Notes under the pieces: model-generated
Database searches by the model: none
Told to the model about the DNA's origin: nothing
Seen by the model: the letters and a program-made list of their open reading frames with translations, nothing else
From: Pseudacidovorax sp. RU35E
GTDB lineage: Bacteria; Pseudomonadota; Gammaproteobacteria; Burkholderiales; Burkholderiaceae_C
Assembly: GCF_900156165.1 (NCBI RefSeq)
Contig: NZ_FTMY01000001.1
Coordinates: 558,001-622,000, forward strand
DNA: 64,000 bases
Reading direction: 5' to 3'
Program-made: the position numbers and the translations under genes
Shown: positions 18,401-30,433 of the stretch, one piece after another
How the letters are laid out: every line of letters begins with the position of its first letter
Position numbering within the stretch: position 1 is the first letter of the stretch

Positions 18401-18946
18401 CAATGGGGCTGGTTGCTCGCACGTCGCGGCTCCGATGGGCAGGTGATGGCCGAAATCAACGGCCCCAACATGGGCTTGCAGATGCACGGCCCCTCCGGCT
18501 GGATGCGCCTTTGGGGCCCCGGCTTCAACCTCGACACGGGCGGCCTGACCATCAATCAGGTGGACGTGATCGACACGCTGAACGTGCGTGGTGGTGCCAT
18601 CAACACATCGTTGGCGGCCGTGGGCGCCGATTACGTGCAGGTGAATTTCGCAGTGCCCGCCGGGCAGAACTGGCGAGTCGCCTGCCACGCCACGAATCAG
18701 CACGCAGGCCCCGTCTTCTCGCTGCTGCGCACGCACAGCGGCAACTACGCCATGGCGGCCGACAGCGGCTCACAGAACCTGCTGCGCATGTGGGACCTCG
18801 GCCCGGGCTCCTACGGCGTGCAGATTTCCGCGCAGGACCTTTGGCGGGGTGGCTATGCAAACGGCGGCTCCGACTGGGGCCCGCCCCCCTATTCGCCCAA
18901 TGGCCAGGTCGTGAACCTCGTTCTCCACATCTGCAAGAAAGCCTGA
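9485..18946 (+). CDS. Giant tail tip/host specificity protein (J-like) with internal repeats
   Basis: At 3153 residues this is nearly three times lambda J (1132). Order: a hydrophobic signal-like N-terminus (RALLLLCLALASVSAHAEP) and a second hydrophobic segment near 35-60; a J-type tip domain (about 90-520); two or three Fn3-like domains (540-830); an Ala/Glu/Gln coiled coil (840-1000); a short CBM5/12-like module (AYAVGEMAKAEGKLYRSTAA, near 1012-1052); a large repeat region (about 1085-2810) of coiled-coil units and four jelly-roll modules; a DUF1983 segment (ARYTFRLDVGGRISGML, near 2850); and a unique C-terminal region. It should form the trimeric central tip that binds the host surface. 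The stop overlaps the next ATG by one base (TGATG). Confidence 0.9.
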   Translation: MVAVMRALLLLCLALASVSAHAEPVSTFIGGIYTWLGTAAVGTMTWGSVITAALTVVSVASTMHATSQQKRRARQEAAHKLQQDIANLADRRLTLLQSDSPHAVVYGSPARVGGAIVGMVTTGAGAQWTHIVMIFAAHPCEAIEELYIDDDPIQAGPDGWTTNETFFKQPGGFMDYDHGPMVHVGVHLSPGGVDVADQWLIDQCNSAIGGAPGMWTADHKLSGFTYAVVSVNKIMDRFQGGPPNVTAKLRGKASILDVRTGERGYSRNPALCLADFITSEQGYGASWDQIDTAALIAAANACDEEVYGADADDGSEGAAVNFGGSRALYVCDGMFRSDQDRDSTRQQLEEAMAGFSMQSGGVWRIQAGAWSTPVLVLGDADMLQPSVVVQTGNPGERVYNTARGTYVNAAQNGVSSDFAQYQNETFLALDPHAKILDMALPFTGAHVRCHQLARVAVERSRGGLVLQIFPKMLAWHLQPGDRVLLSSAFLGFEDKAFIVTDWRYSRTAPLTLEVQEDVPAFYDTADEVLADAAPNSNLPNPYAPPAPPQNLRVESGPEQIVQQVAGAMVRARVSWAPSTSSYVIHGGRVRVQWRAGATDPGQVDGLDVAAWNDVELPGDAVETFLLGLDVGSVYSVRARFETTFTASAWVYAGHTLEGNTGNPAEVQGLALWVAEDGIRARWGAPVGLDQLEWDGTQVRRGDTWPAAAADVRFDGRALTASLGWFPAGAQNVWAAHRSMTGRWSSPISAGIAILPPATVVPQFELTMQFVQLRWADCRTTQPISRYVVRKGEAWETADPVGQAVGTSFSLQGQVGAARYWVAAVDVAGNLGVPGAVDVTVDQLIESALDVLDKQLGDAFELLQQDLTDTNRSWAQAVAAEAQNRAQAIIAAAQQSAADLAAEAQAQAAAITAAVAAEAQRNTQALAAEAAQRAQALAAEAAARAGDVGAAAAAEAQARAAAIAQEAQSRAAALGAEAVARNAAIQQSAAALQASIDSVHAQLGDILGVGDYDPAHAYAVGEMAKAEGKLYRSTAATQGNPPPDAAFWQLVGNYASIGEAVAGIAAQVQDHSTRIQQTEDAFTAQAAQLSGVASRLGAAEGVGAANAGAVSGLQSDVSSINGALTAQAQRLDRQQAALDGKASASALAATDAKVTQAEGAISSHSGQLASLGSRIGAAEGVGSANAGAISGLQSDVSSINGTLTSQSRSIVSLTSELQTGLAQLDTDGGVPVFRQAMQPVVTGVKRNLFDYNSSGRGGLWYGFNGLTWLDPNELAPDGSSGGVMKVTVAQEQILRVAKDGHEGGAPGMAYAYGLWIRTADGSSKQLVIDVNDRYLGADGVVTVDGTYRRITAAMTTEADTFRFMDVNLTPGSYYVFGAQIEVGSQATAYQAVETPTNFAGSGLPVGSLWVDTANNNRLSRYNGAGWDEVTDARIGPTASAVQSLEAKTQQQDGQISSHSGQLVSLGNRIGAAEGVGAANAGAVLGLQSDVSSINGALTAQAQRQDQQQAALDGKASASALAATDAKVTQAEGTISSHSGQLVSLGNRIGAAEGVGAANAGAVSGLQSDVSSINGALTAQAQRLDQQQAALDGKASASVLAATDAKVTQAEGAISSHSGQLASLGSRIGAAEGVGSANAGAISGLQSDVSSINGALSSQSRSIVSLSSELQTGLAQLDADGGVPVFRQSSQPAITGIKRNLLNGNSSGRAHPWDYFVGDWTIDPSESAPDGSGLGVMKVTTSSKTEFRVSAGFYYEGTPGETYTYSVFIRSADGLPKPLLLDLNDADWSDGGVPVIDGGYRRVVATGVTSANGYRFMDLQLPAGSYYLFGAQIEVGSQATAYQDVVSPTNFAGSGLPVGSLWVDTANNNRLSRYNGAGWDEVTDARIGPTATAVQSLEAKTQQQDGQISSHSGQLVSLGNRIGAAEGVGSANAGAVSGLQSDVGSINGALTAQAQRLDHQQAALDGKASASALAATDAKVTQAEGAISSHSGQLASLGSRIGAAEGVGSANAGAVSGLQSDVGSINGALTAQAQRLDQQQAALDGKASASALAATDAKVTQAEGTISSHSGQLVSLGNRIGAAEGVGAANAGAVSGLQSDVGSINGALTAQAQRLDQQQAAIDGKASASALAATDAKVTQAEGAISSHSGQLASLGSRIGAAEGVGSVNAGAISGLQSDVGNINGALSSQSRSIVLLTSELRTGLAQVGADGGVPVFRQGRQPTVTGVKRNLFDVNSSGRAGPWHSVGAASWVVDANEQAPDGSGPGVLKVTMAVADVVRVAVGRYDDGVPDVSYSYSLWIRTADGSQKALAVDVNDVFFGDDGVHQLGPAYQRISATLATNWNYYRFLDLNLPAGSYYLFGAQIEVGSQATAYQDVVSPTNFAGSGLPVGSLWVDTANNNRLSRYNGAGWDEVTDARIGPTASAVQSLEAKTQQQDGQISSHSGQLVSLGNRIGAAEGVGSANAGAVSGLQSDVSSINGALTAQAQRLDQQQAALDGKASASALAATDAKVTQAEGTISSHSGQLASLGSRIGSAEGVGSANAGAISGLQSDVSSINGTLTSQSRSLVSLTSELQTGLAQLDTDGGVPVFRQATQPAMRGVKRNLFDYNSSGRGGMWYGFGGATWLDPNERAPDGSAGGVMKVTADQERILRVAKDGHDGGTPGLSYAYGLWIRTADGTSKQLVIDVNDRYLGADGVVTVDGTYRRITAAMTTEADTFRFMDVNLTPGSYYVFGAQIEVGSQATAYQAVETPTNFAGSGLPVGALWVDTANNNRLSRYNGAGWDEVTDARIGPTASAVQSLEAKTQQHDGQLSAQAASVTALQARADGVDGKTASIEQSLSVTADTAGKALARYTFRLDVGGRISGMLNDNDGQTSRMAFLTDVFSITSPGYADKPVFTIGTVGGTGALGFRGDMYLDGSILARSISVQQLAALTANLGQVYTGRLDVMGGINGEGGENWGYARSYGKWYGDGQWGWLLARRGSDGQVMAEINGPNMGLQMHGPSGWMRLWGPGFNLDTGGLTINQVDVIDTLNVRGGAINTSLAAVGADYVQVNFAVPAGQNWRVACHATNQHAGPVFSLLRTHSGNYAMAADSGSQNLLRMWDLGPGSYGVQISAQDLWRGGYANGGSDWGPPPYSPNGQVVNLVLHICKKA
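12740..17175 (+). repeat. Four arrays of a 237-bp (79-residue) in-frame repeat
   Basis: Within the tail tip gene a 237-bp unit encodes a coiled-coil segment with the pattern RIGAAEGVGSANAGAxSGLQ then QSDVSSINGALTAQAQR and ALDGKASASALAATDAKV. Full units start at 12740; 13859 and 14096; 15225, 15462 and 15699; and 16811. Each array ends with a shortened unit (starting 12977, 14333, 15936, 17048) that changes to LxSQSRSxVxLxSEL. Full copies per array are therefore 1, 2, 3 and 1. Spacing of exactly 237 bp was counted from matching codons. The units are nearly identical, which points to recent unequal recombination. Confidence 0.9.
13156..17760 (+). repeat. Four jelly-roll (GAQIE-type) modules, one per array
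   Basis: Four copies of a module of about 175 residues lie at roughly 13156-13690, 14510-15045, 16106-16640 and 17230-17765. Each begins GGVPVFRQ, continues through KRNLxxxNSSGR, and ends SYYxFGAQIEVGSQATAYQ, the pattern of beta-sandwich carbohydrate-binding-like domains in phage tail proteins. Copies 1 and 4 are almost the same; 2 and 3 differ strongly in the first two thirds but return to near identity at the end, sharing YYLFGAQ and DVVSPT against YYVFGAQ and AVETPT in 1 and 4. The pattern looks mosaic. Confidence 0.85.
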
Positions 18947-19539
18947 TGGACGTCATCAATTACACCGTGGTGGACGAGCACGGCCTCGTGCGCTCCTATG
19001 GGCAGACGGCCGAGCCTCAGCTGCTGTCCCCGCCAGCGGGCGGCCGTGTGCTGGCCGGCGTCGCGCCGCTCACGGTCAATGCCTGGTGGGCGGCGGACAG
19101 CCAGACCTTCCAGCTGATCCCGCCCGCGCCGTCGCCGCGTCACACGTTCGACCCGGTCGCCAAGGTGTGGGCCCTGGTGCTCACCCTGGCCGATCTACGC
19201 GCCGAGCAGCTCGACGCCGTCAATGCTGCCTTCGAGCGCGCGAGCCAGGCGCTCACGGAAGGCTATCCGGCCTCCGAGCGGCTGACCTGGCCCATCCAGC
19301 AGAGCGAGGCGCTCGCGTGGGCAGCCGACCCGGCAGCGCCGACCCCGTACCTCGACGGCCTGGCCGCAGCGCGCGGGATCGAGCCCGCCGAGCTGCGGCA
19401 GAAAACGCTCGAGAACGTGCAAGCCTGGATGGCGGCCAGTCAGCAGCTGATCGGGCGCCGGCAGGCGCTGCGCGATGCCATCGCCGCCGCGGCCACGGTG
19501 GACGCCATCCGGGCCATCACCTGGGAAGGAGACGCCTAG
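18946..19539 (+). CDS. DUF4376-like tail fibre-associated protein
   Basis: A 197-residue protein starting MDVINYTVVDEHGLVRSYGQ. The first half has short strands and the sequence WALVLTLADLRAEQLDAVNAAFERASQ; the second half is helical with WPIQQSEALAWAADP, the Trp-Gln-Glu-Ala pattern of DUF4376-type proteins that follow phage tail fibre genes. It could be a fibre cap or assembly factor. Start overlaps the tip gene stop by one base. Function is inferred from position and partial pattern. Confidence 0.6.
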   Translation: MDVINYTVVDEHGLVRSYGQTAEPQLLSPPAGGRVLAGVAPLTVNAWWAADSQTFQLIPPAPSPRHTFDPVAKVWALVLTLADLRAEQLDAVNAAFERASQALTEGYPASERLTWPIQQSEALAWAADPAAPTPYLDGLAAARGIEPAELRQKTLENVQAWMAASQQLIGRRQALRDAIAAAATVDAIRAITWEGDA

Positions 19540-19593
19540 CGACACCGACCCATTCCCCTTCCTCCTGCTTCCTTTCCTTCATCCGAGAACACC

Positions 19594-19896
19594 ATGCCTC
19601 AAAAAATCATCGCGCTGCACAAACCCCTCATCGACGAGGGCACCGGCGCACCTGTCACGCATTTCGTCATCAGCCAATACACCATCGTGGTGGACGGCAC
19701 CAAGAGCCAGGCCGTCCTGCAGGGCTTCGTGAGCGCTGACGCGCGCGCCGCCGGCCGCAAGCCGCTGGCCCATCGCGCCGTCGACCTCGTGGGCACGCCC
19801 GAGGGCGACACGCTGCAATGGCTGTACACGGCGCTGATCGCCAAGCCCGACGGCGAGCTGGCCGGCGCCGCGGCGGTCTTCGAGGAAGCGACCTAA
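19594..19896 (+). CDS. Unknown small phage protein
   Basis: A 100-residue protein, MPQKIIALHKPLIDEGTGAP at the N-terminus, predicted to be mostly strands with no membrane segment, signal peptide or cysteine. It lies between the fibre-associated gene and the holin genes, in the same orientation and with only five bases to the next start. I do not recognise a family. GC content and codon use match the surrounding late genes, so it is very likely translated with them. Confidence 0.7.
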   Translation: MPQKIIALHKPLIDEGTGAPVTHFVISQYTIVVDGTKSQAVLQGFVSADARAAGRKPLAHRAVDLVGTPEGDTLQWLYTALIAKPDGELAGAAAVFEEAT

Positions 19897-19900
19897 ACGC

Positions 19901-20251
19901 ATGCCTCCCGAACCGACCTCGAACGTGGTCGCCAGCATCGCCGCGAGCGCTTCGACGCTCGCCATGGCGATGCTCGGTGTGGATTACTACGCCCTCATTT
20001 GGGGGCTCATTGGTGCGCTGCTGGCCCTGTATCAGGCCGAGCGCATGGGCCGTATTCGGTCGCTGGTCTTCGTGGCCCTGTCGACCCTCGTGGGCGCCGC
20101 CTGCGGCACAGCCGCTACCGAGTTCATCGGCAGCTCGCGGCCGGTGCTCATCGTGCTGTCGCTGATCGCCGGCTTCGGTGCGCAGGTGCTGGTGACCACG
20201 CTTTTGCGTGCGTTGCTGAGTCACGTCGGCAAGCTGGAGAGCAAGACGTGA
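19901..20251 (+). CDS. Putative holin (three to four membrane segments)
   Basis: The 116-residue product has hydrophobic stretches near residues 8-45 (with VDYYALIWGLIGALLALYQAE), 53-75 and 80-103, a short polar N-terminus and a basic tail. It lies immediately before a second small membrane protein, the lysozyme and the spanins, which is a complete lysis cassette. A holin would release or activate the endolysin by forming inner-membrane lesions. Family identity is inferred from topology and position. Confidence 0.7.
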   Translation: MPPEPTSNVVASIAASASTLAMAMLGVDYYALIWGLIGALLALYQAERMGRIRSLVFVALSTLVGAACGTAATEFIGSSRPVLIVLSLIAGFGAQVLVTTLLRALLSHVGKLESKT

Positions 20252-20559
20252 AAACAGCCATCGAACTGGGCGGCATCATTGCCGCGTGTGCAGTCCTGAT
20301 CGGCTGCGTGGTGCGTGTGGACCTTCTGCGCGCCGGGGAGCACCGGGTGAGCGTCTTCGGTGTCTATCTGCTGTGGGCGGTGTTCGCCTTCGGCGTGGTG
20401 CTGGGCCTGCTGCGCGGCGAGGAACTCGACTGGTACGACGTGGCAGCGCTCGCCGGCATGCTCATGCACCTGGCTCTGTCTCGCAAGAGCTGGCGGGGCT
20501 GCGCGCCGCGGGATGCACAGGTCAAGCAGGTGCGCGATATTGGGGGGCAACATGGATAG
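20248..20559 (+). CDS. Second small membrane protein of the lysis cassette
   Basis: A 103-residue protein with GTG start overlapping the holin-like gene by four bases. Hydrophobic segments lie near residues 5-22 (ELGGIIAACAVLIGCVV), 36-54 (SVFGVYLLWAVFAFGVVLG) and 63-78, with a basic C-terminus. It could be a second holin, an antiholin, or a holin partner; the sequence does not decide. It overlaps the lysozyme start by eight bases. Confidence 0.65.
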   Translation: MKTAIELGGIIAACAVLIGCVVRVDLLRAGEHRVSVFGVYLLWAVFAFGVVLGLLRGEELDWYDVAALAGMLMHLALSRKSWRGCAPRDAQVKQVRDIGGQHG

Positions 20560-21166
20560 CGCCGTGGAAGTGATGCGCGCGGGCCCGGCCTGCCACGCGC
20601 TGAATCACCACTATGAAGCCTGCAAGCTGCTGGCCTACCCGGACCTGGCTTCGCCGCTCTTTGCGGCGCTGCGCCGGGCGGGCTTCGACCCCTACAACAT
20701 GCCGGCGATCCCGACGCCGTTCGCGAGGCTGAGCGGAGCGCCCTGGACCATTGGATGGGGCGACACGCTGGACGTGCGCGTCGGCCAGGTCATCACGCAG
20801 GCCGAGGCGGACGTGCGCTATGCGCGGCGCCTCGCCCGCGACTTCGAGCCGCCCGCGCGCGAGGCCGTGCAGGTGCCGGTGTCGCAGTGCCAGTGGGACG
20901 CCATCGTTTCGACGGTCTACAACACCGGGCCCGGCGGGCGAGGGCGGGACGGCATCCTCTACCTGGCCGATGGCCGGCCGAGCACCTTTCTGCGAAAGCT
21001 CAATGCCGGCGACTACGCGGGCGCCGCGGACGAGCTGCCGAAGTGGGTGAGGGCGGGCGGGCAGGTGCTCAAGGGGCTGCAGCGGCGCCGGCATGCGACG
21101 CGGCTTGTGTTCCTGGGCTGGCCCGTTCGCAGGGCCATTGAGGCCGGCGGGGCGGCGTTTCCATGA
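20552..21166 (+). CDS. Endolysin, T4-type lysozyme (GH24)
   Basis: A 204-residue muramidase. The GH24 signature is visible as HHYEACKLLAYPD followed by WTIGWGDTLDV, with the catalytic Glu in YEACK and the Asp/Thr pair in WGDT. Further downstream are the conserved QWDAIVSTVYNTGPGG and FLRKLNAGDYAGAADELPKWV. No N-terminal signal or SAR segment is seen, so export would depend on the holin. A GGGGGG run before the ATG is the ribosome site. The gene overlaps both neighbours. Confidence 0.9.
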   Translation: MDSAVEVMRAGPACHALNHHYEACKLLAYPDLASPLFAALRRAGFDPYNMPAIPTPFARLSGAPWTIGWGDTLDVRVGQVITQAEADVRYARRLARDFEPPAREAVQVPVSQCQWDAIVSTVYNTGPGGRGRDGILYLADGRPSTFLRKLNAGDYAGAADELPKWVRAGGQVLKGLQRRRHATRLVFLGWPVRRAIEAGGAAFP

Positions 21167-21516
21167 CCCCGGCCATGCAGGCGCTCGCTCCGGCGTTGGT
21201 GCTGAGCCTGGGCTGCAATGCCGGGCTCGGCTGGGCCTGGCTGCATGCGCGGGATGCCGCGACGCGCACGCTGGGCGAGCGCGACAGCGCGCGGGCGGAC
21301 GCCTCGGCCTGCAGCGACGGCGTCGCCGATCTTCGCGACCTGGCAGACGAGCGCCATCGGGTCGCGAAGGCTGCGCAGGCAGCAGCAGCAGAGCGGCGGC
21401 GGCAACAGGAGGCTATGGCGCAGCTTATCCTCTCGACGCCCGCGGTGCCCGGTGACGTCTGCGCGAGCGCTCAGGCGCGCGTCGACAGCTGGATACGGGG
21501 AAGGGTGGCACCATGA
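21163..21516 (+). CDS. Rz-like inner-membrane spanin
   Basis: The 117-residue protein has an N-terminal hydrophobic segment (MQALAPALVLSLGCNAGLGW) and a long charged helix rich in Ala, Arg and Glu (residues 30-90), the usual form of Rz i-spanins. It starts inside the lysozyme stop (ATGA) and ends overlapping the small lipoprotein gene by four bases. With the o-spanin it should span the periplasm and disrupt the outer membrane in the last step of lysis. Confidence 0.78.
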   Translation: MTPAMQALAPALVLSLGCNAGLGWAWLHARDAATRTLGERDSARADASACSDGVADLRDLADERHRVAKAAQAAAAERRRQQEAMAQLILSTPAVPGDVCASAQARVDSWIRGRVAP

Positions 21517-21767
21517 GGAGAGCCGCGCTCCTGGGCGTGTCTGCGGCTTTGCTGGCGGGTTGCGTGCTCGGCCCGCCCGCGCGCGTCAATGTGCCTGTGC
21601 CGGTCGAGTGCCACGCGAAAGAGCCGAAGCTGCCTCCCATGCCCACAGACCATCTGCCGTGGGGCGTGGACGTCGACCGCTGGGTAGCGGCGGCTCAGGC
21701 GGAGTTGCTGTTACGGGACGGCTATGAAGGCGAATTGAGGGCCGCCCTTCGCGAGTGCACTGGTTGA
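21513..21767 (+). CDS. Rz1-like outer-membrane lipoprotein spanin
   Basis: An 84-residue lipoprotein: basic MRRAALLGVSAALLAGC with lipobox LLAGC (Cys 17), followed by a proline-rich segment (GPPARVNVPVPVECHAKEPK) typical of Rz1. Residues 50-80 form a helix likely to pair with Rz. Its start overlaps the Rz stop as ATGA instead of being nested inside Rz as in lambda. Last gene of the phage late operon on this strand. Confidence 0.8.
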   Translation: MRRAALLGVSAALLAGCVLGPPARVNVPVPVECHAKEPKLPPMPTDHLPWGVDVDRWVAAAQAELLLRDGYEGELRAALRECTG

Positions 21768-22005
21768 GGCCCTGCGATTCGAGTGGAAACCAGGTTCGCT
21801 GTGAACGACCACAGTCGGGGATCGGCATGCGCATTTGAATGACTGTTTGGGAGTCGCTTCTCTGAGGATTCGAGACATCGCCGGAGCCGTGAGCGTGCAC
21901 CAAGGCTGCATACAGCCCACCTCTACCCTGCAGACTCTGTGTGGTCCCCCTGCAGCTGGAATCTCGGTAGACTCAAAAAATTATGCGAATCATCGCGGAG
22001 GTGAG

Positions 22006-23970
22006 ATGAAGCTCGTCAAGGCGCATGTGACCAACTTTCGGTCGGCGGAGGATAGCGGCGAATTCGAAATCGGGCAGGTCGTTTGCCTCGTCGGAAAGAA
22101 CGAAGCCGGCAAGAGCGCTCTTCTCCAGGCGCTCGCAGCCTTGAATCCGCACCCATCGACTCCGCAAGTTTTCGACAAGGAGCGCGACTATCCCCGCCGG
22201 CACCTTGCGTCGTATGCCGAGCGACATCCTACAGACGGTGCAGTTGGAATTGTGACGGAGTGGGATTTTGAGGATAAAGAATTGGCTGAGCTTGACGGCA
22301 TGTTGGGCGAGGGTGCTGTCGAACGTCGGGTACAAGTTCAGCGCATCTATGGTGGTAACTTCACATCTACCCCCAGAATTGACTTCAAAAAAGCTGTCAG
22401 TCATCTGTTAGAGAGATTCGAGGTAACTGGGGATGATCTCGTTCCCCTGAGTGCCGCCACGACAACCGATGAACTGTTAAAAGCGCTCAAGGCCGTCGAG
22501 GCGCGCACTGACGCACAGTCCAAATTGCAGGCTCACTTGGAGAGCGAAGGTAATGCGACTAAGCAGGTCAACAACTTTATCTCAAGAAACCTGCCAAAAT
22601 TCATGTACGTTTCCTCCTATGACAGGATGGACGGGACGGTGCAGTTCCAACTCATTCAGTCGCTGCAAAGCCAGAACCTGCTCAATCGGGACGAGCACAG
22701 AGGCAAGAAACTGTTTCTAGAGTTTCTTCAGTATGCAGGTATCTCTTTAAATGAATTATTAAAGCAGAACACATACGAAACATACAATGCGTTATTGCAG
22801 GCCGCATCAAATAAAATCACTGACCAAATTCTTGAATATTGGACTCAGAATCCGGACTTAACTGTTGAGGTGAAGGTATCGACGGGTATGCAAGGTGATC
22901 CGCCCCCCTTCAATGAAGGAACGGTCGCTCGCGCCCGCATCTACAACACACTTCATCGCGTAGACACCCCCTTCTCGGAGCGCAGCGCTGGGTTTGTTTG
23001 GTTCTTCTCGTTCTTGGTTAAGTTCGCCCAGATCAAGAACGAGGCGACGCCTGTTATCTTGTTGTTGGACGAGCCTGGGCTCACACTGCACGGAAAGGCT
23101 CAAGCCGACCTTCTGCGCTTTTTCAACGAAAGACTCGCACCACACCACCAAGTCATCTTTTCGACGCACTCACCGTTCATGGTGCCAGTCGGAAATTTCG
23201 CTTCGGTGCGCATAGTTCAGGACGTGATCGAGTTAAAAGGGAGCCGGCGGGTTCCGCTTGGCACTAAGGTCCGCGACGACGTACTGACACAAGATCCAGA
23301 CACACTTTTTCCGTTGCAGGCAGCTCTTGGTTATGAAGTGACCCAATCGCTGTTTGTTGGAAAGAATACTCTTTTGGTGGAGGGTCCCGGCGATATCCTT
23401 TACATACAGGCACTCAGCGATGCGCTCCGTAGGCGCAAGCGGCAAGCGCTCGATCGGCGCTGGACTATTTGCCCCGCTGGCGGCATCGACAAGATCCGCC
23501 CATTCGCGTCCTTGTTTTCTGGCAACGCGCTGAATATCGCCGTTCTCTCGGACCAAGCTGCAGGCGACAAACGCAAAATCGAAGATCTGCGAAAATCTCA
23601 GATTCTAAAAGCAGGTCAATTCCACACCATCGCCGATCTACTTGGGCGTCCTGAGGCAGACATCGAGGATCTTTTGGCTCCCGGTCTGCTGGTCGAGATC
23701 TTGAACGCCGCATATCAACTAACGGGCCCGCACGCACTAACGGTGAAGAAACTTGATGAAGCCGACAAGGCCACTTCCCGACTCATTAAGAAGGCCGAGG
23801 CCTTTTTCAGGCTGCTGCCCCAGACGATTGACATGCTAGATCACTTCGCGCCCGCCGCCTGGCTTGTACGACATGGCGAGATTCTCGATGCAACGTCGGC
23901 TGAGGTGAATGAAACATTAGACCGGGCTCAGGCGGTTTTCGAGACTTTCAACGAGCTCCTCAAGGATTGA
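22006..23970 (+). CDS. OLD-family ATPase/TOPRIM nuclease
   Basis: A 654-residue protein. The ABC-type ATPase has Walker A GKNEAGKS (residues 30-37), a signature-like FSERSAGFVWFFSFL (near 322-336), Walker B VILLLDEPGLTLH (about 348-360) and the His switch FSTHSPFM (near 383-390). A TOPRIM domain follows with the Glu motif LLVEGPGD (near 457-464) and Asp motif VLSDQAAGD (near 513-521). OLD proteins are ATP-regulated nucleases, several with anti-phage action. The ATG at 22006 has a CGGAGGTGAG ribosome site; the frame is open further up. No UvrD-type helicase is adjacent, so this is a stand-alone type. GC is lower than the phage late genes, a sign of separate acquisition. Confidence 0.87.
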   Translation: MKLVKAHVTNFRSAEDSGEFEIGQVVCLVGKNEAGKSALLQALAALNPHPSTPQVFDKERDYPRRHLASYAERHPTDGAVGIVTEWDFEDKELAELDGMLGEGAVERRVQVQRIYGGNFTSTPRIDFKKAVSHLLERFEVTGDDLVPLSAATTTDELLKALKAVEARTDAQSKLQAHLESEGNATKQVNNFISRNLPKFMYVSSYDRMDGTVQFQLIQSLQSQNLLNRDEHRGKKLFLEFLQYAGISLNELLKQNTYETYNALLQAASNKITDQILEYWTQNPDLTVEVKVSTGMQGDPPPFNEGTVARARIYNTLHRVDTPFSERSAGFVWFFSFLVKFAQIKNEATPVILLLDEPGLTLHGKAQADLLRFFNERLAPHHQVIFSTHSPFMVPVGNFASVRIVQDVIELKGSRRVPLGTKVRDDVLTQDPDTLFPLQAALGYEVTQSLFVGKNTLLVEGPGDILYIQALSDALRRRKRQALDRRWTICPAGGIDKIRPFASLFSGNALNIAVLSDQAAGDKRKIEDLRKSQILKAGQFHTIADLLGRPEADIEDLLAPGLLVEILNAAYQLTGPHALTVKKLDEADKATSRLIKKAEAFFRLLPQTIDMLDHFAPAAWLVRHGEILDATSAEVNETLDRAQAVFETFNELLKD

Positions 23971-24364
23971 GGGTCAGGCACCGCATACGAAGCGTTGACG
24001 CACTGTAGTTGGACGGGGCTTGCCCCACTTTGGGCTACCTTGGGCGATTTCCCTTAACTCCTACGTTGAACGTCCGCTCCCTAATATCTAGATGGCTGAA
24101 GTTTGGGCCCACAGCGGGCTTGGAGCGATCGTACTCAATCATTGGCGCGGTGGCTGCTCCAGACCCGTTACCGACGCCCGATTGGATTTTCACCGTCCGT
24201 GACATTTGGACTTCGTTGGTCGAACGTTATGCAAGGGCCAGAATGCACACACAGAAGCCAACTGAAGTCAGATTTTATTCCGGAGTGTTGTTCCTAGGGC
24301 AAGCCTACGGATGAGGATCCCTCTGCAGTGGATGCGCGGGGTCTCAAGCGCTGCTGCCTGCGCA
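23971..24364. other. Non-coding gap between convergent OLD and HEPN genes
   Basis: About 390 bases separate the two convergent genes. A rightward open frame of 101 codons (24009-24314) has a non-ATG start, no ribosome site and no recognisable pattern. No clear intrinsic terminator with a U-tract was found; GGGGCTTGCCCC near 24016 is a weak hairpin only. Nothing else is supported. Confidence 0.5.
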
Positions 24365-25387
24365 TTAGAATTGCACGCCTGCGTCCTGGGCCATCCCGCG
24401 TGCGAGATTTTCTGTCAATTCAAGGCATCGCAGCACAGAATCTTGCCGAAGCACTATCCTCTGACCGACCAGATATCGAGTATCCCCACTTTTTTCGATG
24501 TATTTTTGGTCGATTATTCCCTCAAGATGCGCCAAAAGATGTCTCTGTTGAAAGAAAATATTCAAGGCAGACAAGTCGATTTCTGAAAGATGCACGTCAT
24601 ATTTGGTTCCGAACGCCTCTTTCCACAAGTCACTGCCTTCGTCGAGATTTTGAAACGCGTTCCTCCGCGGTTTTTTGTGCGTCCTAGAGTGCCGTTCATA
24701 CAGGGCTTCCGCGAACCTTTGGAATGCCATGACCACATTTTGTAAGCCAGCTTCCAGAATAAGTCGGCAAAGGTTCTCTGCTGTGTCCGCGTCCGAAACG
24801 CTTGCGCGAACTGCCGGCAGAGACGCAACGCTCGCCCTGACCGCCGACAGCGACTGGCGAAACACATGTTCAGCTGCGCTCGTCCCGCAGGCTGGGCAGA
24901 AGAACGCAGAGCCGACCACAGCATACTGACATGCGCATTTCTCGCAGGAAATTTTCAGCCGCATCGGGTCTGCCGCACTAACAGGCAGTATCACTTCTCT
25001 TGGCGCTTTGGATACGTTCATTGTAATCTTGATGAACGCATTGCGACGCTGGCGCTGGTTCCATTCGGACGCGTCGGCTTCCATCGCCTCGTCAATAATA
25101 TTAGTTAGTACGCCCATTGCTTTAGCCTTCTGGTACTCGACCTGCTCGGTAGTAAACCATGATCGAGCGGGAGCCTCATGGCCGCAAAAAGGGCAGTATG
25201 CTGCCTCATCCTTTACTTTGTCGCTCCACCAGTCGGCCGCAAGAACCTTGAACGTGAATAGGCAATCTGACGCCGGACATTCGCGGTCGATATAGCCTTC
25301 CAAGTCAATGGGAACTGAATCTGTAACGTCTACCTTAAGCTGATTGCGTTCCAGCTGTTCCAGCTCACGAATAAGTTTCTCGAACAT
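24365..25387 (-). CDS. Zinc-ribbon protein with C-terminal HEPN-like domain
   Basis: A 340-residue protein that I cannot assign to a named gene. Two zinc-ribbon halves are visible: C37/C42 with C65/C68 (CPFCGHE), and C148/C151 with C164/C167 (CEKC ... CPACG). A helical region follows and ends in FFQQRHLLAHLEGIIDQKYI, where R282 and H287 form R-x4-H, the motif of HEPN-superfamily RNases and toxins. The start has GAGGA at a good distance. It lies convergent to the OLD nuclease gene and its GC is well below that of the late genes. An RNase or abortive-infection role is inferred, not shown. Confidence 0.75.
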   Translation of the reverse strand: MFEKLIRELEQLERNQLKVDVTDSVPIDLEGYIDRECPASDCLFTFKVLAADWWSDKVKDEAAYCPFCGHEAPARSWFTTEQVEYQKAKAMGVLTNIIDEAMEADASEWNQRQRRNAFIKITMNVSKAPREVILPVSAADPMRLKISCEKCACQYAVVGSAFFCPACGTSAAEHVFRQSLSAVRASVASLPAVRASVSDADTAENLCRLILEAGLQNVVMAFQRFAEALYERHSRTHKKPRRNAFQNLDEGSDLWKEAFGTKYDVHLSEIDLSALNIFFQQRHLLAHLEGIIDQKYIEKSGDTRYLVGQRIVLRQDSVLRCLELTENLARGMAQDAGVQF

Positions 25388-25575
25388 GCTCAGTCCTCTT
25401 CTTTAAGACGCGAGAGCAGTAGCCCTTGGCTCTTTATGCGTTGCGTAATCGTTGCTGCGTCCGAGGTGGCCAAGCAGCAGACGCGATCTCAGATTTAGTG
25501 ATGGACGCACCTCTTTTCGAATCCATATTGGGTTGAGGCCGCGCCCTACTAAGCCCACTGCGCAAATAATGAAGG

Positions 25576-25794
25576 CTACTTCGCGCTCGCGCCAGCCAAG
25601 CACTCTAGCGCAAACTGAACGCAGTAAGGAGCAGCCGAATGGGTGGATACGTCCATTGGCGCGCAGTAGGAGCGCATCATCCGCTCGCTCACCCCAATCT
25701 GGCGGGCAGCGCCACGTTGGGAGAGCCCCGCCCGTTCGATCAGGGTGCGGATGTAGGCGGGGTCCGGGTTGTGCTTACTTGCGTCGGGCAGCAT
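25576..25794 (-). CDS. Small helix-turn-helix regulator
   Basis: A 72-residue protein beginning MLPDASKHNPDPAYIRTLIE and containing LIERAGLSQRGAARQIGVSERMMRSY, a clear helix-turn-helix of the phage/XRE kind (residues 18-42). The rest is a short helix with cysteines. Its start lies 20 bases inside the end of the upstream gene 25775-26440, so translation is probably coupled. It may bind the palindrome at 26497-26513 ahead of its own operon; that link is inference. Confidence 0.7.
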   Translation of the reverse strand: MLPDASKHNPDPAYIRTLIERAGLSQRGAARQIGVSERMMRSYCAPMDVSTHSAAPYCVQFALECLAGASAK

Positions 25795-26440
25795 TGGAAA
25801 TGGCGCGCTTGCGCGCGGCTTGGTACAGGGGATGGCCCTCGAACAGCACCACGCGTCCGCGGTCGAAGTAGTCGACCATCGAATCCGTGTTGTTCTCGTA
25901 GCCGGTGGGGATGATGCCGTGCAGATCGTTGCCGTAGTCGCGGTCATAGATGGTGACGCAGGCGCGGCCGTCAACACGGTTGTCCAGGCTGTAATGGACG
26001 CGGGCCTTGAGCTTGCCCTTCGTGACGGCGAAGACACCGAAGCGCACGCCGACGAACTGCTCCGCAGCGGCTTGCATGCGCGCGGCGTAGGTGGCGACTT
26101 CGGCCGTCTTTGCTGCGGTCGCCAGGATGTCGCGCGTGGTGGCGATGGCCAGCAGCTCGTCGAGGTAGGGGCGCCCGTGCATCTTGCCGTTGATGAGGAA
26201 CATTGCGCGCAGGCCGCCGAAGGCGCGGGATAGGCGGTTGTCCCGGATCACCCGGCCATCTTCTAGGTACACGACAAACGACACGTCGCCGGCAACGGCA
26301 TCGGCGCCGGTGATGGCGCCGGAACCGGAGCCGCTGCCGTAGAAGCCTTGGCAGTAGACGCCGAGGCCGACGAGGCGCTCCGGCTGGGTTGCAAGGGGGC
26401 GGACTTCGTCGGCGGTGAGGATCAGTTGCGTCGGGTGCAT
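25775..26440 (-). CDS. Unknown phage-type protein, 221 residues
   Basis: Starts MHPTQLILTADEVRPLATQP. The first half has a Gly/Ser-rich turn (CQGFYGSGSGSGAITGADA) and strands, the second half a helix followed by strand-rich HYSLDNRVDGRACVTIYDRDYGN. The C-terminus is basic. I do not recognise the family. High-GC codon use matches the phage late genes and differs from the low-GC neighbours on either side. It is the first gene after the operator-like palindrome and overlaps the small regulator downstream. Confidence 0.65.
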   Translation of the reverse strand: MHPTQLILTADEVRPLATQPERLVGLGVYCQGFYGSGSGSGAITGADAVAGDVSFVVYLEDGRVIRDNRLSRAFGGLRAMFLINGKMHGRPYLDELLAIATTRDILATAAKTAEVATYAARMQAAAEQFVGVRFGVFAVTKGKLKARVHYSLDNRVDGRACVTIYDRDYGNDLHGIIPTGYENNTDSMVDYFDRGRVVLFEGHPLYQAARKRAISNAARRK

Positions 26441-26496
26441 GGTGGCTCCGGTAGGGTTCGCCGCGCCGGGAATCGGCTGGCATGGGCTGAATCATA

Positions 26497-26513
26497 TAGG
26501 CGAAAATCGCCTA
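26497..26513. promoter_or_regulatory. Perfect 7-bp palindrome, likely repressor operator
   Basis: TAGGCGA-AAA-TCGCCTA is a perfect inverted repeat with a 3-base centre, located 57 bases upstream of the leftward ATG at 26440 in a 140-base gap. Its form suits a dimeric helix-turn-helix repressor. The small regulator encoded two genes downstream is the obvious candidate ligand. Confidence 0.55.
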
Positions 26514-26579
26514 ATTCAACGATGACCCTCGAACGCGATCAACCATCCTCGGCGCGGACGCCCCTGCCGATGCCGCTCG

Positions 26580-26870
26580 TCAGGTGTCGAGCTGAACCGA
26601 GAAGTACGCCTCCCCCACGTCGCCCAGCTCGCGCATGCCTGCAAGGCGCGCCTTGTCGAAGGCTGCAGCCCATAGGCTCGCCTCGCGTATCTCGTCCTTG
26701 CTGAGGTCTTCCGCGCTGCTGTCCTGGACGGCCTCAAAGGCGCGCAGGGTGTGCGCCAAGTCGTCCCCGAGCAGGCGATTCAACTCGCGAAGAAAGCGGG
26801 CTTCAGCGCTGCGCAGAAGGTCCGCCGGTGTGTCGGCGGGGGTGTCGATGAGGCGGGCAGAGACGGACAT
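26580..26870 (-). CDS. Unknown small phage-type protein
   Basis: A 96-residue, largely helical and acidic protein starting MSVSARLIDTPADTPADLLR, with FLRELNRLLGDDLAHTLRAFEAVQ in the middle. No membrane segment or metal motif. It starts 11 bases after the stop of the amber-interrupted gene upstream and belongs to the same leftward run of small genes. Family not recognised. Confidence 0.65.
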   Translation of the reverse strand: MSVSARLIDTPADTPADLLRSAEARFLRELNRLLGDDLAHTLRAFEAVQDSSAEDLSKDEIREASLWAAAFDKARLAGMRELGDVGEAYFSVQLDT

Positions 26871-26881
26871 GGAACCTCCGA

Positions 26882-27097
26882 TCAGAACGGGGCAGGGGAG
26901 CGGACGACGTCGACGGGGCCGATGCCGTCATAGACCACGGCGCCGCTGGAGCTGGTGACGATCCATCGGCCATTGATGCCTTCGGCGGGCGCGACGTCGT
27001 AATCCTCGGGCGGGAGAGGCAGGACGATCTCGTCCCGGACGGTGTCGCTGTACTAGGCGGGCACGCGGAGCAGGGTGGGGTGGCCGAACAGGCTCAT
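26882..27097 (-). pseudogene. Small gene interrupted by in-frame amber codon
   Basis: A leftward frame of 72 codons from ATG at 27097 to TGA at 26882 reads MSLFGHPTLLRVPA, then TAG (27053-27055), then YSDTVRDEIVLPLPPEDYDV and GRWIVTSSSGAVVYDG to the end. The part after the stop is protein-like and has no nearby ATG of its own. The ATG starts three bases after the upstream gene stop and the frame ends 11 bases before the next start, so the reading frame fits an operon gene. It is either broken by one base change (for example CAG or TGG to TAG), misread in sequencing, or read through. Confidence 0.6.
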
Positions 27098-27100
27098 GGC

Positions 27101-27436
27101 TTACGGGGTTGGGATGAACTTCGACAGGAGCCCCCAGTGCACTGGCGGCAACTCTTTTTCCTTGCTGCATGGACGGACAAGCCACAGCTGCGAGAACTCG
27201 TGAATGCGGTCATCGATGACCTGCGCTTCGGTGCCGGCCAAAAGCCAGCCAAGGTCAGCGGGGCAGGGCAACAACACGGGGTCCGCCATGAACAAGGCTG
27301 TCCGATGGCTTGCGACGCCTGAGCGCACAGTCACCTCGATCCGTCGGATGAACCGCTGAAAGTTGTTGTGCGGCCAGACAGACACCTCCACACGGCCGAC
27401 CACGGGCGCCGGGTACTCGGCCCGGCGCAGACGCAT
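27101..27436 (-). CDS. Unknown phage-type protein at head of leftward operon
   Basis: 111 residues from ATG at 27436 (MRLRRAEYPAPVVGRVEVSV). A longer version with GTG at 27472 is possible but would start inside the LexA box. The sequence is strand-rich with basic patches and contains FMADPVLLPCPADLGWLLAG. Family not recognised. It is the first gene of a leftward run reaching 25576 and faces the SRAP cassette across the LexA box. Confidence 0.6.
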   Translation of the reverse strand: MRLRRAEYPAPVVGRVEVSVWPHNNFQRFIRRIEVTVRSGVASHRTALFMADPVLLPCPADLGWLLAGTEAQVIDDRIHEFSQLWLVRPCSKEKELPPVHWGLLSKFIPTP

Positions 27437-27471
27437 GCCTTTGGAACGGAGGGTGCGGACTTCACAGAACA

Positions 27472-27487
27472 CTGGGCAAATATACAG
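27472..27487 (+). promoter_or_regulatory. LexA (SOS) box before the SRAP cassette
   Basis: CTGG-GCAAATAT-ACAG has the same half sites and 8-base spacing as both boxes in front of lexA in this window. It ends 20 bases before the ATG of the first cassette gene (27508), where it would cover the promoter. It also lies just ahead of the divergent leftward operon. SOS induction is inferred from the match. Confidence 0.72.
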
Positions 27488-27507
27488 TGTTTCTGTAGAC
27501 TGAATCC

Positions 27508-27705
27508 ATGGACAAACACGATGACGAAATCTGGATAGCAGCCTGCGCGCACCGCCTGCAGCAGCACTGGCGCACGGTCGAATCTAGCGAGCTGGCGGCC
27601 ACGGCGCGGCAGATTGCGCATGACCCCGAGCTTCGCGCCTTGGCGCCCAGCACTGCCGCGGCTCGTTGGCTTGCCCCGGTCAAGGCGCCTGCGCGTGGGG
27701 ATTGA
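27508..27705 (+). CDS. Small protein of SRAP cassette
   Basis: A 65-residue protein, MDKHDDEIWIAACAHRLQQH at the start and AAARWLAPVKAP near the end. Short proteins with the WIAACAHRLQxxW pattern accompany phage and mobile-element gene sets in related bacteria; their function is unknown to me. It starts 20 bases after the LexA box and overlaps the next gene, so it is the first gene of the likely SOS-controlled unit. Confidence 0.65.
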   Translation: MDKHDDEIWIAACAHRLQQHWRTVESSELAATARQIAHDPELRALAPSTAAARWLAPVKAPARGD

Positions 27706-27940
27706 CCAAGGGCTGATCCTTGTTTGCGGCGCGCTGGCTGCCTGGCTATCGCAGGACCTTAGCAAGGCGCGGGCGCGGTGGGCCTGTGTGTTCGGCTTGG
27801 CCTCGCAGCCGTTCTTCCTGGCTGCGACCCGGCAGGCCGGCCAGCTCGGTATGTTCGCGCTGGCGATGCTGTACACGGTCGCCTGGGCACGTGGAGCATG
27901 GTCCTACTGGCTGCGGCCGGCGCTGCGCCGCAGAATGTGA
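27695..27940 (+). CDS. Small two-segment membrane protein
   Basis: From GTG at 27695 the product is 81 residues with hydrophobic segments around residues 5-19 (GLILVCGALAAWLS) and 52-68 (GMFALAMLYTVAWARG). The frame is open further upstream but GTG overlaps the end of the preceding gene by 11 bases, which fits translational coupling. Only three bases separate it from the SRAP start. Function unknown. Confidence 0.6.
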   Translation: MGIDQGLILVCGALAAWLSQDLSKARARWACVFGLASQPFFLAATRQAGQLGMFALAMLYTVAWARGAWSYWLRPALRRRM

Positions 27941-27943
27941 AGG

Positions 27944-28612
27944 ATGTGCAATCGTTACGTCGCCCCCAATGAGCTGGAGATGGAACGGCTGTTCCACATT
28001 GGCCGCGCCAATCCCGTTCCTTGGCCGCGGACGATCTTCCCGCGAAGCCCCGGCCCTTTCATTCGCCGTGCTCGCGACGACGCCGGCTACTCGCGCGAGC
28101 TGGCTGTAGGGCAGTGGGGCCTGATCCCCTGGTTTGCGAAAGAGCCGCGACTCAAGTTCTCGACCAACAACGCGCGTAGTGAAGAGCTGGAAGCCAAGGC
28201 GACGTTTCGCGATCCCTGGAGGCGCGGGCAGCGGTGCATCATCCCGGCCCTCACATTTGACGAACCGAATTGGGAGACGGGCAAAAACCAATGGTGGACC
28301 TTCCGCCGCACCGATGGTGAACCATGGGGCTTGGCCGGCCTGTGGAACATCTGGACGGACCGGTCCACGGGTGAGGTTCACGAGAGCTACACGATGCTGA
28401 CTATCAACGCGGACGAGCACCCGCTGATGAGCCGCATGCACAAGCCGGATCCAAAGCTGCCGCCCGACCAGCAGGACAAGCGCAGCGTTATCCCGCTGGA
28501 GCGCGGTGATTGGGATCAGTGGCTTGCGGGCACAACTGCAGATGCTAATGCCTTGCTCCGCTTGGCACCCGTCAATGTTTTTGATGCCCGGCCGGCGGGT
28601 GAAATAGCGTGA
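27944..28612 (+). CDS. SRAP-domain protein (HMCES/YedK family)
   Basis: A 222-residue protein opening with MCNRY, the SRAP hallmark in which Cys2 becomes the N-terminal residue that crosslinks to abasic sites in single-stranded DNA. The conserved GQWGLIPWF, STNNARSEEL (Asn of the active site) and DEHPLMSRMH (His) segments are all present. The family protects abasic sites at stalled replication and is linked to the SOS response by genome context. Here it is the last gene of a three-gene unit behind a LexA box, which fits that link well. GAAGG precedes the ATG. Confidence 0.92.
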   Translation: MCNRYVAPNELEMERLFHIGRANPVPWPRTIFPRSPGPFIRRARDDAGYSRELAVGQWGLIPWFAKEPRLKFSTNNARSEELEAKATFRDPWRRGQRCIIPALTFDEPNWETGKNQWWTFRRTDGEPWGLAGLWNIWTDRSTGEVHESYTMLTINADEHPLMSRMHKPDPKLPPDQQDKRSVIPLERGDWDQWLAGTTADANALLRLAPVNVFDARPAGEIA

Positions 28613-28769
28613 GCGATGGTGTAACAGGGACGAACGATTTTCGAATTGCGAGAGGATGCAAAGAAGCGTCTGTAGATGGCGCGTTAGCTTACGATCAAGA
28701 GTCCAAGTTCCCTTACGCGCGTCTGCCTGCAGTTTCTCTATTTGGTTGGCTTACGTGCATTTGGCACAG

Positions 28770-29840
28770 TCATGTACAGGTGGAATCCTCAAATATTTGC
28801 CAGGGAAACCCCTGCTGATACTTCGTTTGAAAATTGCCTTTCGGATCGGCTACTATGTATGTCATGGGGCCAAATGAGGCCGGATCTAGGAATTGCTTCT
28901 GCTTGTTAGTGGCTCTATTCAGATAGGTCGCCGTTGTGTAAGCAATTACATCCGCTAGCTCAAGCCCAGTTTCGGAACCCGGTTGCACAAATTTCGGTTC
29001 TGGTACCGGAATTCCACGCGAAATAAATGAAAAAACGAGAGACTTGTGTAGTCCTAAAAATTCGTCTCTTGCCCATCCTTGGATCGCTTCCTCTCCACTA
29101 ACTGGCTTGTCAGCATCAAAAATGAAATGCGGTTGCACTTCCGAGGATCCAGCAAGTTCAGTCATCATTAGAATTAGATGATTGTATAGATCCCTTTTGC
29201 AGAACTCCTCTTGCGCTCGTCCCGCATCACCGCTCTTCCTGTGAACCATGGCCACCGCAGCTACCGGGTACAAATACATTCCAGGAATGCAAAAAAAATC
29301 AGCAATGTCTGATATTAAAGCTCTATAACCGTCTTCACTTAATTGTGATGGGTTTTTCTTTCTTCCCTCAGGTGATTTAAGCTCTGTCATGTGAATTCGC
29401 CACGAGTCCGGATGAATATGCGGCGCATGTTTTTGCTTGATTTCATCGATTTTGCTTTTTAGAAGTTCGTGGTCCTTCTCTTTGATTCCGACCATGCCAT
29501 AGCAGTAAATCTGTGGCGTAGTTGCCAATCGAAAGGCCTCGTCGCCGTAAAAAAAATTAATAGAGCCATAATTGCTCAGCGGCAGAGAAAAATCTACCGG
29601 CTTGTTGCAATTGGGGCAGGTGAGCACTATGCCCGCCCTGCGAAATAGCCGTCCATCATTCGTGAGCACTGGACCAAGCGGAGGGCGCTCTGCTAAATAG
29701 TCAACATCGAATTTAGTTTCGCATTCTAGGCAGTTCCCCTTTGGTAAATTTAGAAAATTAGGAATTGATCTGGCTGATGCAGAAATCTTGTTAAAAATCT
29801 TTGCGTCTGGGCGATGTAGCCGCGCGTGATGTTTTTTCAT
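28770..29840 (-). CDS. Zinc-ribbon DUF3800-like protein (RNase H-fold nuclease candidate)
   Basis: From ATG at 29840, with AGGA eight bases before it, the product has 356 residues; the frame extends upstream through a poly-G tract but that part is low-complexity and unlikely to be translated. Near the N-terminus are CLEC and CPNC, a zinc ribbon. The rest has the DUF3800 layout: a FFYGDEAFRL turn in place of the usual DESG, a helix and RIHMTELKS, then FIFDADKP and a C-terminal LELADVIAYTTATYLNR. DUF3800 proteins are often found in defence loci. GC is far below the host average. Enzymatic activity is not shown. Confidence 0.68.
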   Translation of the reverse strand: MKKHHARLHRPDAKIFNKISASARSIPNFLNLPKGNCLECETKFDVDYLAERPPLGPVLTNDGRLFRRAGIVLTCPNCNKPVDFSLPLSNYGSINFFYGDEAFRLATTPQIYCYGMVGIKEKDHELLKSKIDEIKQKHAPHIHPDSWRIHMTELKSPEGRKKNPSQLSEDGYRALISDIADFFCIPGMYLYPVAAVAMVHRKSGDAGRAQEEFCKRDLYNHLILMMTELAGSSEVQPHFIFDADKPVSGEEAIQGWARDEFLGLHKSLVFSFISRGIPVPEPKFVQPGSETGLELADVIAYTTATYLNRATNKQKQFLDPASFGPMTYIVADPKGNFQTKYQQGFPWQIFEDSTCT

Positions 29841-30433
29841 CGCATATGTCCTGAGTTTGGAGCAAACCGATTTCATCGGTGCACGAACTTTACTGGCGTA
29901 GCAGGCCGTTAGGCTACTCGCGAAGTGAAAAATGGACGAGCGTGCCCCCCGGCGAGGCCGCGGCGGGGGGGGGGGGCTAGGTGGCAACTGCGGCTCAACC
30001 AGTGCTGGGACATACACGTCTAAGCTACTTTTATGGGAAAGCAGCGCATGCCCAAAGGGTGGGTCGAACAATCGCTTTCACGTGGACGGCGCCTTCCGGT
30101 GAGTGGATGGCTGGCAAACATTGTTGGATGTGACGCCGCACTTCCTCAAGCCTGTGCACGCGCCGATCACTACCCGATCGCGAAGCAAGCCTAGGTCGCT
30201 ACCAGCAAAACGTGACTAGTGCGCTGCCACCAAGGCGGTGAGGATCGCATGTCCACTTAGGCTGTGCATCTGGGTCTTCAACAAAGAAAGTCTGCCGTGT
30301 AAGGTTAATGATGGCGTTCCGGGGGCGCACAATAGGCGAAAGTCTTGCAAGCGCACCGTCACTACTCGATTAATCGGTATTTGCTAGAAGCGTAGGATGA
30401 TGTAAATTCGTGCTTGCCGATACGGAGAAGAGC
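29841..30433. other. Divergent intergenic region with 12-G tract
   Basis: About 590 bases between divergent low-GC genes. It contains a run of twelve G at 29965-29976. A 53-codon rightward frame from ATG near 30032 is possible but has no support. Two loosely similar stretches around CACTACCCGATCG (near 30167) and CACTACTCGATTAATCG (near 30359) may be a decayed repeat. No confident gene or promoter was identified. Confidence 0.45.

Follow-up and report, generated by a model that had tools for sequence, protein, structure and literature searches.

The stretch of DNA analysed here (the window, 64,000 nucleotides) comprises positions 558001–622000 of contig NZ_FTMY01000001.1 from Pseudacidovorax sp. 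RU35E, the genome of which is 5.69 Mb in size. It contains a prophage in which two genes follow the lysis genes: an OLD-like gene at 22006–23970 on the plus strand (gene 1) and a zinc-ribbon/HEPN-like gene at 24365–25387 on the minus strand (gene 2). Both are intact open reading frames (ORFs), convergent and 394 bp apart. For gene 1, a longer alternative TTG start was found at 21835, and the aligned homologues start at M1 of 22006. We consider it fairly probable that a variable post-lysis slot of the prophage took up two independent anti-phage genes, an OLD-like ATPase/TOPRIM gene and a portable zinc-ribbon/HEPN suicide module. The features of the locus were assigned as follows (positions in the window):

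19901..20251, plus strand: holin-like gene of the prophage late operon, left of the slot (phrog_198 holin, E 1.4e-7)
20522..21166, plus strand: endolysin gene (phrog_7 endolysin, E 7.9e-38)
21163..21516, plus strand: spanin-like gene (phrog_214 Rz-like, weak, E 0.0074)
21513..21767, plus strand: small gene overlapping the end of the spanin-like gene (phrog_3580, unknown function, E 7.9e-12)
21768..25603, no strand: variable moron slot, G+C content (GC) 0.52–0.56 (composition and comparison with same-genus prophages)
22006..23970, plus strand: OLD-like ABC ATPase with C-terminal TOPRIM, 654 amino acids (aa), stand-alone (Pfam, PADLOC, alignment)
24365..25387, minus strand: double zinc-ribbon protein with C-terminal HEPN-like domain, 340 aa (PADLOC, alignments, AlphaFold2 model)
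25775..26440, minus strand: prophage gene beyond the slot (within 25604–27502, which matches prophage L063 at 81% identity)
26580..26870, minus strand: prophage gene where two more same-genus prophages rejoin (L062 from 26608, L065 from 26579)

The spanin-like gene and the small gene (21163..21767) are the last conserved late genes ahead of the slot. The GC of 1-kb bins was 0.683–0.697 at 19001–22000, 0.516–0.564 at 22001–26000, and 0.669 at 26001–27000. At third codon positions (GC3), it was 0.60 in gene 1 and 0.56 in gene 2, compared with 0.77–0.88 in five selected same-strand ORFs just upstream. An original prediction, made from the sequence of the window, had described the two genes as lying back to back after the late operon, with a base composition unlike that of the phage late genes, as a foreign moron insertion. 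The ORFs, the holin, endolysin, and spanin-like genes upstream, the low GC, and the variable content of the site in same-genus prophages bear this out. The identical pair of genes was also found in an IMG/VR record of 46,893 bases, and no Rfam families were found within 21500–26000.

The lysis-gene block was searched for in 15 genomes of the genus, and some match, mostly short, was obtained in ten of them; long matches were found in the same genome (two further places) and in genomes G302 and G307. The block (19590–22000) matches other same-genus prophages, and in five of six related prophage stretches compared, the left match stops at 21646–21760. The far side rejoins in three of the six (L062 at 26608, 81%; L063 at 25604, 81%; L065 at 26579, 74%), and between the flanks these three prophages hold content other than that of the window. 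The slot of L062 carries a 415-aa PDC-S59 ATPase (E 6.6e-31). Those of L063 (a 223-aa ORF and small ORFs with host-like GC, as judged from ORF lengths and composition) and L065 (two small ORFs) were described without a family scan; in L065, an Mrr_cat-type gene (21.4 bits, cut-off 21) lies past the next common phage gene. L061, on contig C8 of the window's own genome, is a further prophage, with lysis genes 88% identical and no rejoining match; after these genes it has a 1096-aa HamB-like helicase gene (PADLOC E 1.9e-33) and then a 267-aa gene, with GC of about 0.5. The 267-aa companion gave no match to any Pfam or PADLOC model at E 0.001, and the two genes are possibly a Hachiman variant with an unrecognised partner. 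The remaining two stretches, L064 and L066, show no low-GC insert by composition, which weighs against our preferred explanation. Since the contents differ among same-genus prophages, the post-lysis site is a variable slot; two of the six stretches compared, like the window, have defence-like genes there. It is thus a simple place to look for more prophage-borne defence genes in this bacterial group.

The gene 1 product was assigned to the OLD family, as had been proposed, by Pfam matches to AAA_15 (E 1.3e-19), above the cut-off, and to OLD-like_TOPRIM, which was marginal (24.8 bits against a cut-off of 23.2). The best PADLOC models were AriA and Old (E about 5e-22), the Old match being partial, and GajA gave partial matches (best E 4e-13). 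The single PDB chain under E 0.01 was 6p74, the OLD protein of Thermus scotoductus (TsOLD; PMC10568477). The ATPase motifs G30-K31...G35-K36 (Walker A) and D355-E356 (Walker B) and the H-loop H388 are invariant in eight sequences, and so are the TOPRIM residues E459, D463, D516, D552, E554, and D555 in eight aligned homologues. In the phmmer alignment, E459 and D463 pair with TsOLD E377 and D381; the metal ligands described for TsOLD are E377, D381, D431, D433, S478, and E480 (PMC7049728). Read from the motif, D516 and A518 would pair with TsOLD D431 and D433, and the second Asp of D-x-D is A518 in gene 1, at a position that reads A/A/A/A/S/Q/F/D across eight homologues. The claim that the OLD protein is intact therefore stands for Walker A/B, the H-loop, and E459/D463/D516/D552/E554, and falls for this second Asp. 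The loss of one of the six TsOLD metal ligands (the D433 position) makes the nuclease activity of gene 1 uncertain. As not all six ligands are kept, the protein is called OLD-like here rather than a full member of Class 1. Cleavage of a host tRNA is reported for P2 Old, and YbjD is reported to keep its phage phenotype without its TOPRIM (PMC13261556); one lost ligand alone would therefore not make gene 1 inert.

Like the Class 1 OLD proteins (P2 Old, TsOLD, YbjD/OldB), gene 1 combines an N-terminal ABC ATPase (Walker motifs, H-loop) with a C-terminal TOPRIM, has no helicase gene adjoining, and, as P2 Old does, resides in a prophage. It differs in length (654 aa versus 528 aa in the TsOLD PDB chain) and in having A518, variable in the subfamily, at the D433 position. 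No UvrD-like or other helicase match was obtained in the scanned neighbouring ORFs (five at 19594–21767, five at 25775–31132, and 27944–28612). Three other assignments were rejected: Gabija (no helicase adjoining, GajA matches only partial), PARIS (the AriA match spans the ATPase part, and the fused-AriAB match just residues 344–391), and a retron component (the retron Eco8 model was far under its cut-off). Homologues of gene 1 were found in 91 plasmid records, one phage record, and seven other genomes. In the eight neighbourhoods examined, out of the 91 plasmid records, the homologue was annotated as 'AAA family ATPase' among conjugation, restriction-modification, or TIR genes or other cargo; in these eight, a UvrD-like gene was annotated in none and DEAD-type helicase genes in two. 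The homologue at locus L041 was annotated in two pieces. On an Acidovorax carolinensis plasmid (L039), DUF1156 and DUF499 genes and a small ORF are followed 60 bp on by a gene 1 homologue, which looks like a further defence operon ending in an OLD-like gene.

The 340-aa product of gene 2 contains two Cys quartets, in line with the zinc ribbons first noted in it. Ribbon 1 (C37, C42, C65, C68) is partly lost in distant members, and ribbon 2 (C148, C151, C164, C167), separated from it by a helical spacer, is invariant in a 13-row alignment. The C-terminal half, about aa 172–340, is a HEPN-like helical domain with the motif R282-H-L-L-A-H287. No Pfam family matched above cut-off, and the PADLOC model PDC-M14A matched aa 20–170 (E 3.6e-15). 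Gene 2 was not accepted as a two-gene PDC-M14 system: component A was found, and PDC-M14B gave no match in this genome (E ≤ 0.01) or in four records carrying gene 2 relatives. The likeness to PDC-M14 is thus the match of model A to aa 20–170, and the differences are the partner without a match and the HEPN-like half lying outside model A.

Relatives of gene 2, which belongs to a rare and mobile family, were found in 22 plasmid records (E ≤ 0.01; 12 of the 22 were opened) and in none of 50,697 phage records (E ≤ 0.01). Among sampled genomes, they were detected in 6 of 299 of the family (PDC-M14A model; three weak, partial, and with a stop inside), 4 of 369 of the class, 3 of 398 of the phylum, 5 of 399 of the order, and 1 of 18 of the family of genome G776; the genome of the window is itself among those counted for the family, class, phylum, and order, and the five figures rest on different samples, models, and limits. 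Named Novosphingobium genomes contributed two relatives and viral contigs another six, of which one is divided between two reading frames.

The C-terminal domain of gene 2 is probably HEPN, as judged from motif conservation and a structure model; this is not proven. The motif R-H-x3-H, N-x-F-Q, and a following D are kept in 19 of 19 aligned relatives, and R-H-x3-H, with a polar residue after R, in 22 of 22 family sequences of a second count. Four weaker relatives outside the alignment have R-H-x3-H in four of four and N-x-F-Q in one of four. An AlphaFold2 model of gene 2, built from eight sequences, had a mean predicted local distance difference test score (pLDDT) of 79.6, with block means of 81–96 over residues 171–340 and modelled helices at 172–188, 190–196, 200–233, 248–259, 269–288, 294–300, and 315–335. 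R282-H287 lies near the end of helix 269–288 and is followed by the short helix and then by helix 315–335. In HEPN proteins, the motif is described as ending helix 3, with mostly N, D, or H after the R (PMC3710099); the position of the motif in the model is in keeping with this. Among the best 50 of 159 PDB matches obtained with Foldseek, the highest probabilities belonged to HEPN toxins (7ae8_D 0.33, with TM 0.54 on the target; 7ae8_C 0.28; 6m6u_I 0.20). In an hhalign comparison of the gene 2 family with eight HEPN_RiboL-PSP domains, the R-x4-H motifs were in register. The top BFVD match of the model was A0A8S5NVI2, an unnamed 311-aa phage protein (E 6.9e-3, 11% identity), which among the matches listed was the only one with a Foldseek probability of 1.00; the other high probabilities were short alignments.

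Against HEPN, no single score was significant. All HEPN toxin matches in Foldseek had E > 2, and the top of the E-ranked list was noise. The hhalign comparison gave P 0.075 and 0.026 by direction and a probability of <2%. When 19 members were searched against Pfam, one matched HEPN_RiboL-PSP (E 0.014) and one an unrelated family (E 0.0033), and a PDB sequence search with gene 2 and its C-terminal profile returned nothing credible. The R-x4-H in a HEPN-like domain, as first predicted, is thus upheld by the 19 of 19 motif and by the best-probability PDB matches listed being HEPN toxins, none significant; the structure prediction suggested at that time placed the motif near a helix end and ranked these toxins highest by probability, with E values above 2. 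The same scores, together with the useless single-sequence fold (pLDDT 35), would fit a gene 2 that has no defence role, being a nucleic-acid-binding moron such as a regulator, with a C-terminal helical domain that is no RNase. We regard this as unlikely, as R-H-x3-H is invariant in 19 of 19 at the expected helix end, the relatives are repeatedly placed behind immune genes (below), and the PADLOC model matched is one of phage-defence candidates.

The neighbourhoods of gene 2 relatives were compared on a tree of 21 rows (midpoint root), where the window falls in a supported group of 15 (99/96). Near-identical pairs in this group (L015/L016, L068/L070, L087/L091) leave about 12 independent contexts. 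Left out before the count of 15 were L024 (fragment), L095 (two frames), L102 (broken), L025/L026 (ribbon-only), L029 (the L018 locus again, from a different plasmid), L017/L090 (the prophage of the window itself), and L012–L014 (partial, stop inside); L021, L022, L023, L027, L080, and L103 are in the tree outside the clade, and L028, L081, L082, L084, and L104 are distant or weak and not in the tree. For six of the 15 clade members, the gene immediately ahead, in the same orientation, has a defence or nuclease function: at 4 bp it is HsdS, from a Type I set; at 15 bp, a Type ISP enzyme; at 27 bp, a PifA/KAP NTPase; at 36 bp, GajB, in a complete Gabija pair of a viral contig (GajA E 7.9e-288, GajB E 1.1e-256); at 44 bp, a PLD protein; and at 44 or 62 bp, depending on the start chosen, McrC. 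In two more (L068 and L070), an AbiEii-type gene lies about 0.45 kb ahead, and in another two (L015 and L016), the preceding gene is an integrase; L068 and L015 were scanned, and L070 and L016 were judged by starts nearly identical to theirs. The other five have no such partner (the window, L019, L101, L087, and L091); L087 and L091 are presumably P2-like phage fragments. Sister sequences have different partners, McrC being paired with Gabija (100/100), PifA with a solitary copy (100/100), and PLD with phage copies (91/82). Among distant relatives, L027 lies near annotated SbcCD, WYL, and AbiH genes, L080 near WYL and AAA_13 genes, L028 near TIR and OLD-type genes, and L103 lies 420 bp downstream of an HsdR gene; the neighbourhoods of L021, L022, and L023 showed no recognisable defence gene. 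The anti-phage setting originally proposed is thus matched by the slot and by many gene 2 relatives sitting among defence genes. Against our explanation, nine of the 15 do not directly follow a defence gene, and the adjacency counts are raw, without a background rate.

Of the decayed relatives, L102 follows an HsdR gene and L095 an MmeI-type gene at some distance; together with the fragment L024, they suggest gain and loss of gene 2 relatives. Such broken copies are also what would be expected if the island in the window were decayed cargo caught by chance at a permissive post-lysis site, with no present function. This appears very unlikely, as both window ORFs are intact with conserved motifs and two other prophages of the genus hold different defence-like genes at the same place.

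Ribbon-only relatives were found in Rhodococcus and Arthrobacter plasmids (hidden Markov model E 2.5e-14 and 3.1e-17). Both directly follow a gene annotated as a nucleotide-binding protein, with an overlap in Rhodococcus; the Rhodococcus partner is a TIR-type protein (CAP12-PCTIR_TIR, CAP12/PycTIR, E 8.5e-27), and the Arthrobacter partner is known by annotation only. These neighbours suggest that the ribbon half is a regulatory module common to two effector kinds.

Whether the two genes of the window are one unit was examined in 15 distinct loci of the gene 1 subfamily, fetched from the 91 plasmid records and seven other genomes (3–16 kb each, four under 4 kb). A gene 2 relative was present in 0 of 15 (E ≤ 0.01). 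In the reverse direction, an OLD-superfamily gene was found in two of 32 locus records (30 distinct) around gene 2 relatives; these two scored 30 and 24 bits, whereas the genes of the 15 loci reached at least 210, and neither belongs to the gene 1 subfamily. One of them is the Gabija operon (GajA-GajB) with the gene 2 relative as its next gene. A search with AAA_15 in the 12 records behind 12 loci gave five matches, adjacency to a gene 2 relative being shown only for the window prophage and the Gabija contig. On plasmid NZ_CP069307.1, a gene 1 homologue and a ribbon-type match lie far apart (about 14.5 and 135 kb; 40 of the 91 records were listed). A conserved pair of OLD and zinc-ribbon/HEPN genes was therefore rejected for the gene 1 subfamily, and these counts make two separate acquisitions in one slot most likely. 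The original prediction had seen one module in the two genes, which these figures do not support. It had named, as the outcome that would refute it, homologues that are never linked and, in addition, a C-terminal domain that does not fold as HEPN; this combined outcome was not obtained, as there is a Gabija locus in which an OLD-family system and a gene 2 relative share an operon. On that model, genes 1 and 2 could form one defence unit with an OLD-like sensor or DNA-cutting arm and a zinc-ribbon/HEPN suicide arm. The same low GC, the same insertion, and the spacing of 394 bp fit this idea, as does the viral contig with GajA, GajB, and the relative 36 bp on. We think it improbable: the window genes are convergent and form no operon, none of the 15 gene 1 loci holds a gene 2 relative, and gene 2 relatives adjoin many other systems.

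Under the preferred explanation, that of two independent anti-phage genes in one slot, gene 1 would encode a stand-alone protein whose probable role is to detect infection and cut DNA or tRNA, as reported for P2 Old. In gene 2, the ribbon half would be a sensing or docking part that keeps the HEPN-like half inactive, and infection, or failure of a neighbouring system, would release the latter. The HEPN dimer, a latent RNase until triggered, would then cut RNA and halt translation and growth. As gene 2 relatives occur behind many immune genes and also alone in phages and plasmids, the gene would be a portable suicide or back-up module that can act by itself in the lysogen. Gene 2 runs antisense to the late operon; late read-through of the OLD gene might silence it on induction. 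No plus-strand terminator was found between 21400 and 25800 by the consensus scan, which is weak, with fewer sites than in shuffled sequences. That scan, which also returned no promoter, weighs against our explanation.

HEPN suicide proteins tied to immune loci and zinc-ribbon HEPN fusions are known already, and the latter are listed in a HEPN survey (PMC3710099). Tha of Staphylococcus aureus prophages is described as responding to phage tail proteins, which activate it, and as being shut down by an antisense gene when the prophage is induced (PMC11087260). Like gene 2, it is prophage-borne, about 300 aa long, and has a C-terminal HEPN with R-x4-H (R265-NSIM-H270 in Tha-1; PMC11087260); the likeness is drawn from the published description. 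The N-terminal part of Tha is described as being of unknown kind (PMC11087260), and gene 2 has two zinc ribbons. Tha also lies in the cI-controlled region, and gene 2 after the lysis genes, where no ith-like inhibitor gene was identified. PrrC couples DNA-targeting immunity to a suicide RNase, an arrangement proposed as general in 2012 (PMC3506569), and PrrC/RloC resemble the gene 2 family in that a HEPN-type RNase accompanies a DNA-targeting system as a fallback (PMC3506569). They differ in that PrrC contains an ABC NTPase domain, whereas gene 2 carries zinc ribbons and gave no match to an NTPase; gene 2 relatives also occur with several unrelated systems or alone. The P2-like hotspot, with old/tin between gpA and gpQ, is, like the slot described here, a fixed temperate-phage site exchanging anti-phage genes (PMC9122126); the present slot differs in lying after the lysis genes and in prophages of another bacterial group.

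More tentatively, and as a possibility that we hold with some doubt, gene 2 may represent an unrecognised class of 'rider' RNases that plug into unrelated immune systems and add a translation-stopping suicide step. The ribbon sensor would then have a swappable effector (HEPN here, TIR in actinobacterial plasmids), and late transcription would silence gene 2 on induction and spare the phage, as the antisense organisation does for Tha. In the open-access literature searched, no account was found of the double-ribbon family or of how it is distributed among unrelated systems, and nothing was found for PDC-M14 or ZnR-HEPN by name. With members behind Gabija, Type I, Type ISP, McrC, PifA, and PLD genes, or alone in phages, the family would allow partner-specific and generic suicide arms to be told apart, and the same riders, if moved between partners, would be good test material for suicide-arm specificity.

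Elsewhere in the prophage, positions 9485–18946 of the window encode a 3153-aa protein with several near-identical internal repeat blocks, which we take to be a tail protein. A second low-GC stretch lies near the right end of the prophage (28770–31132; GC 0.48 at 29001–31000), with ORFs of 433 aa (sub-threshold DUF3800 match) and 240 aa (weak VWA7_N match), neither of which matched a PADLOC model. A SRAP (SOS-associated peptidase) gene is located at the prophage end (27944–28612), within the stretch common to L062.

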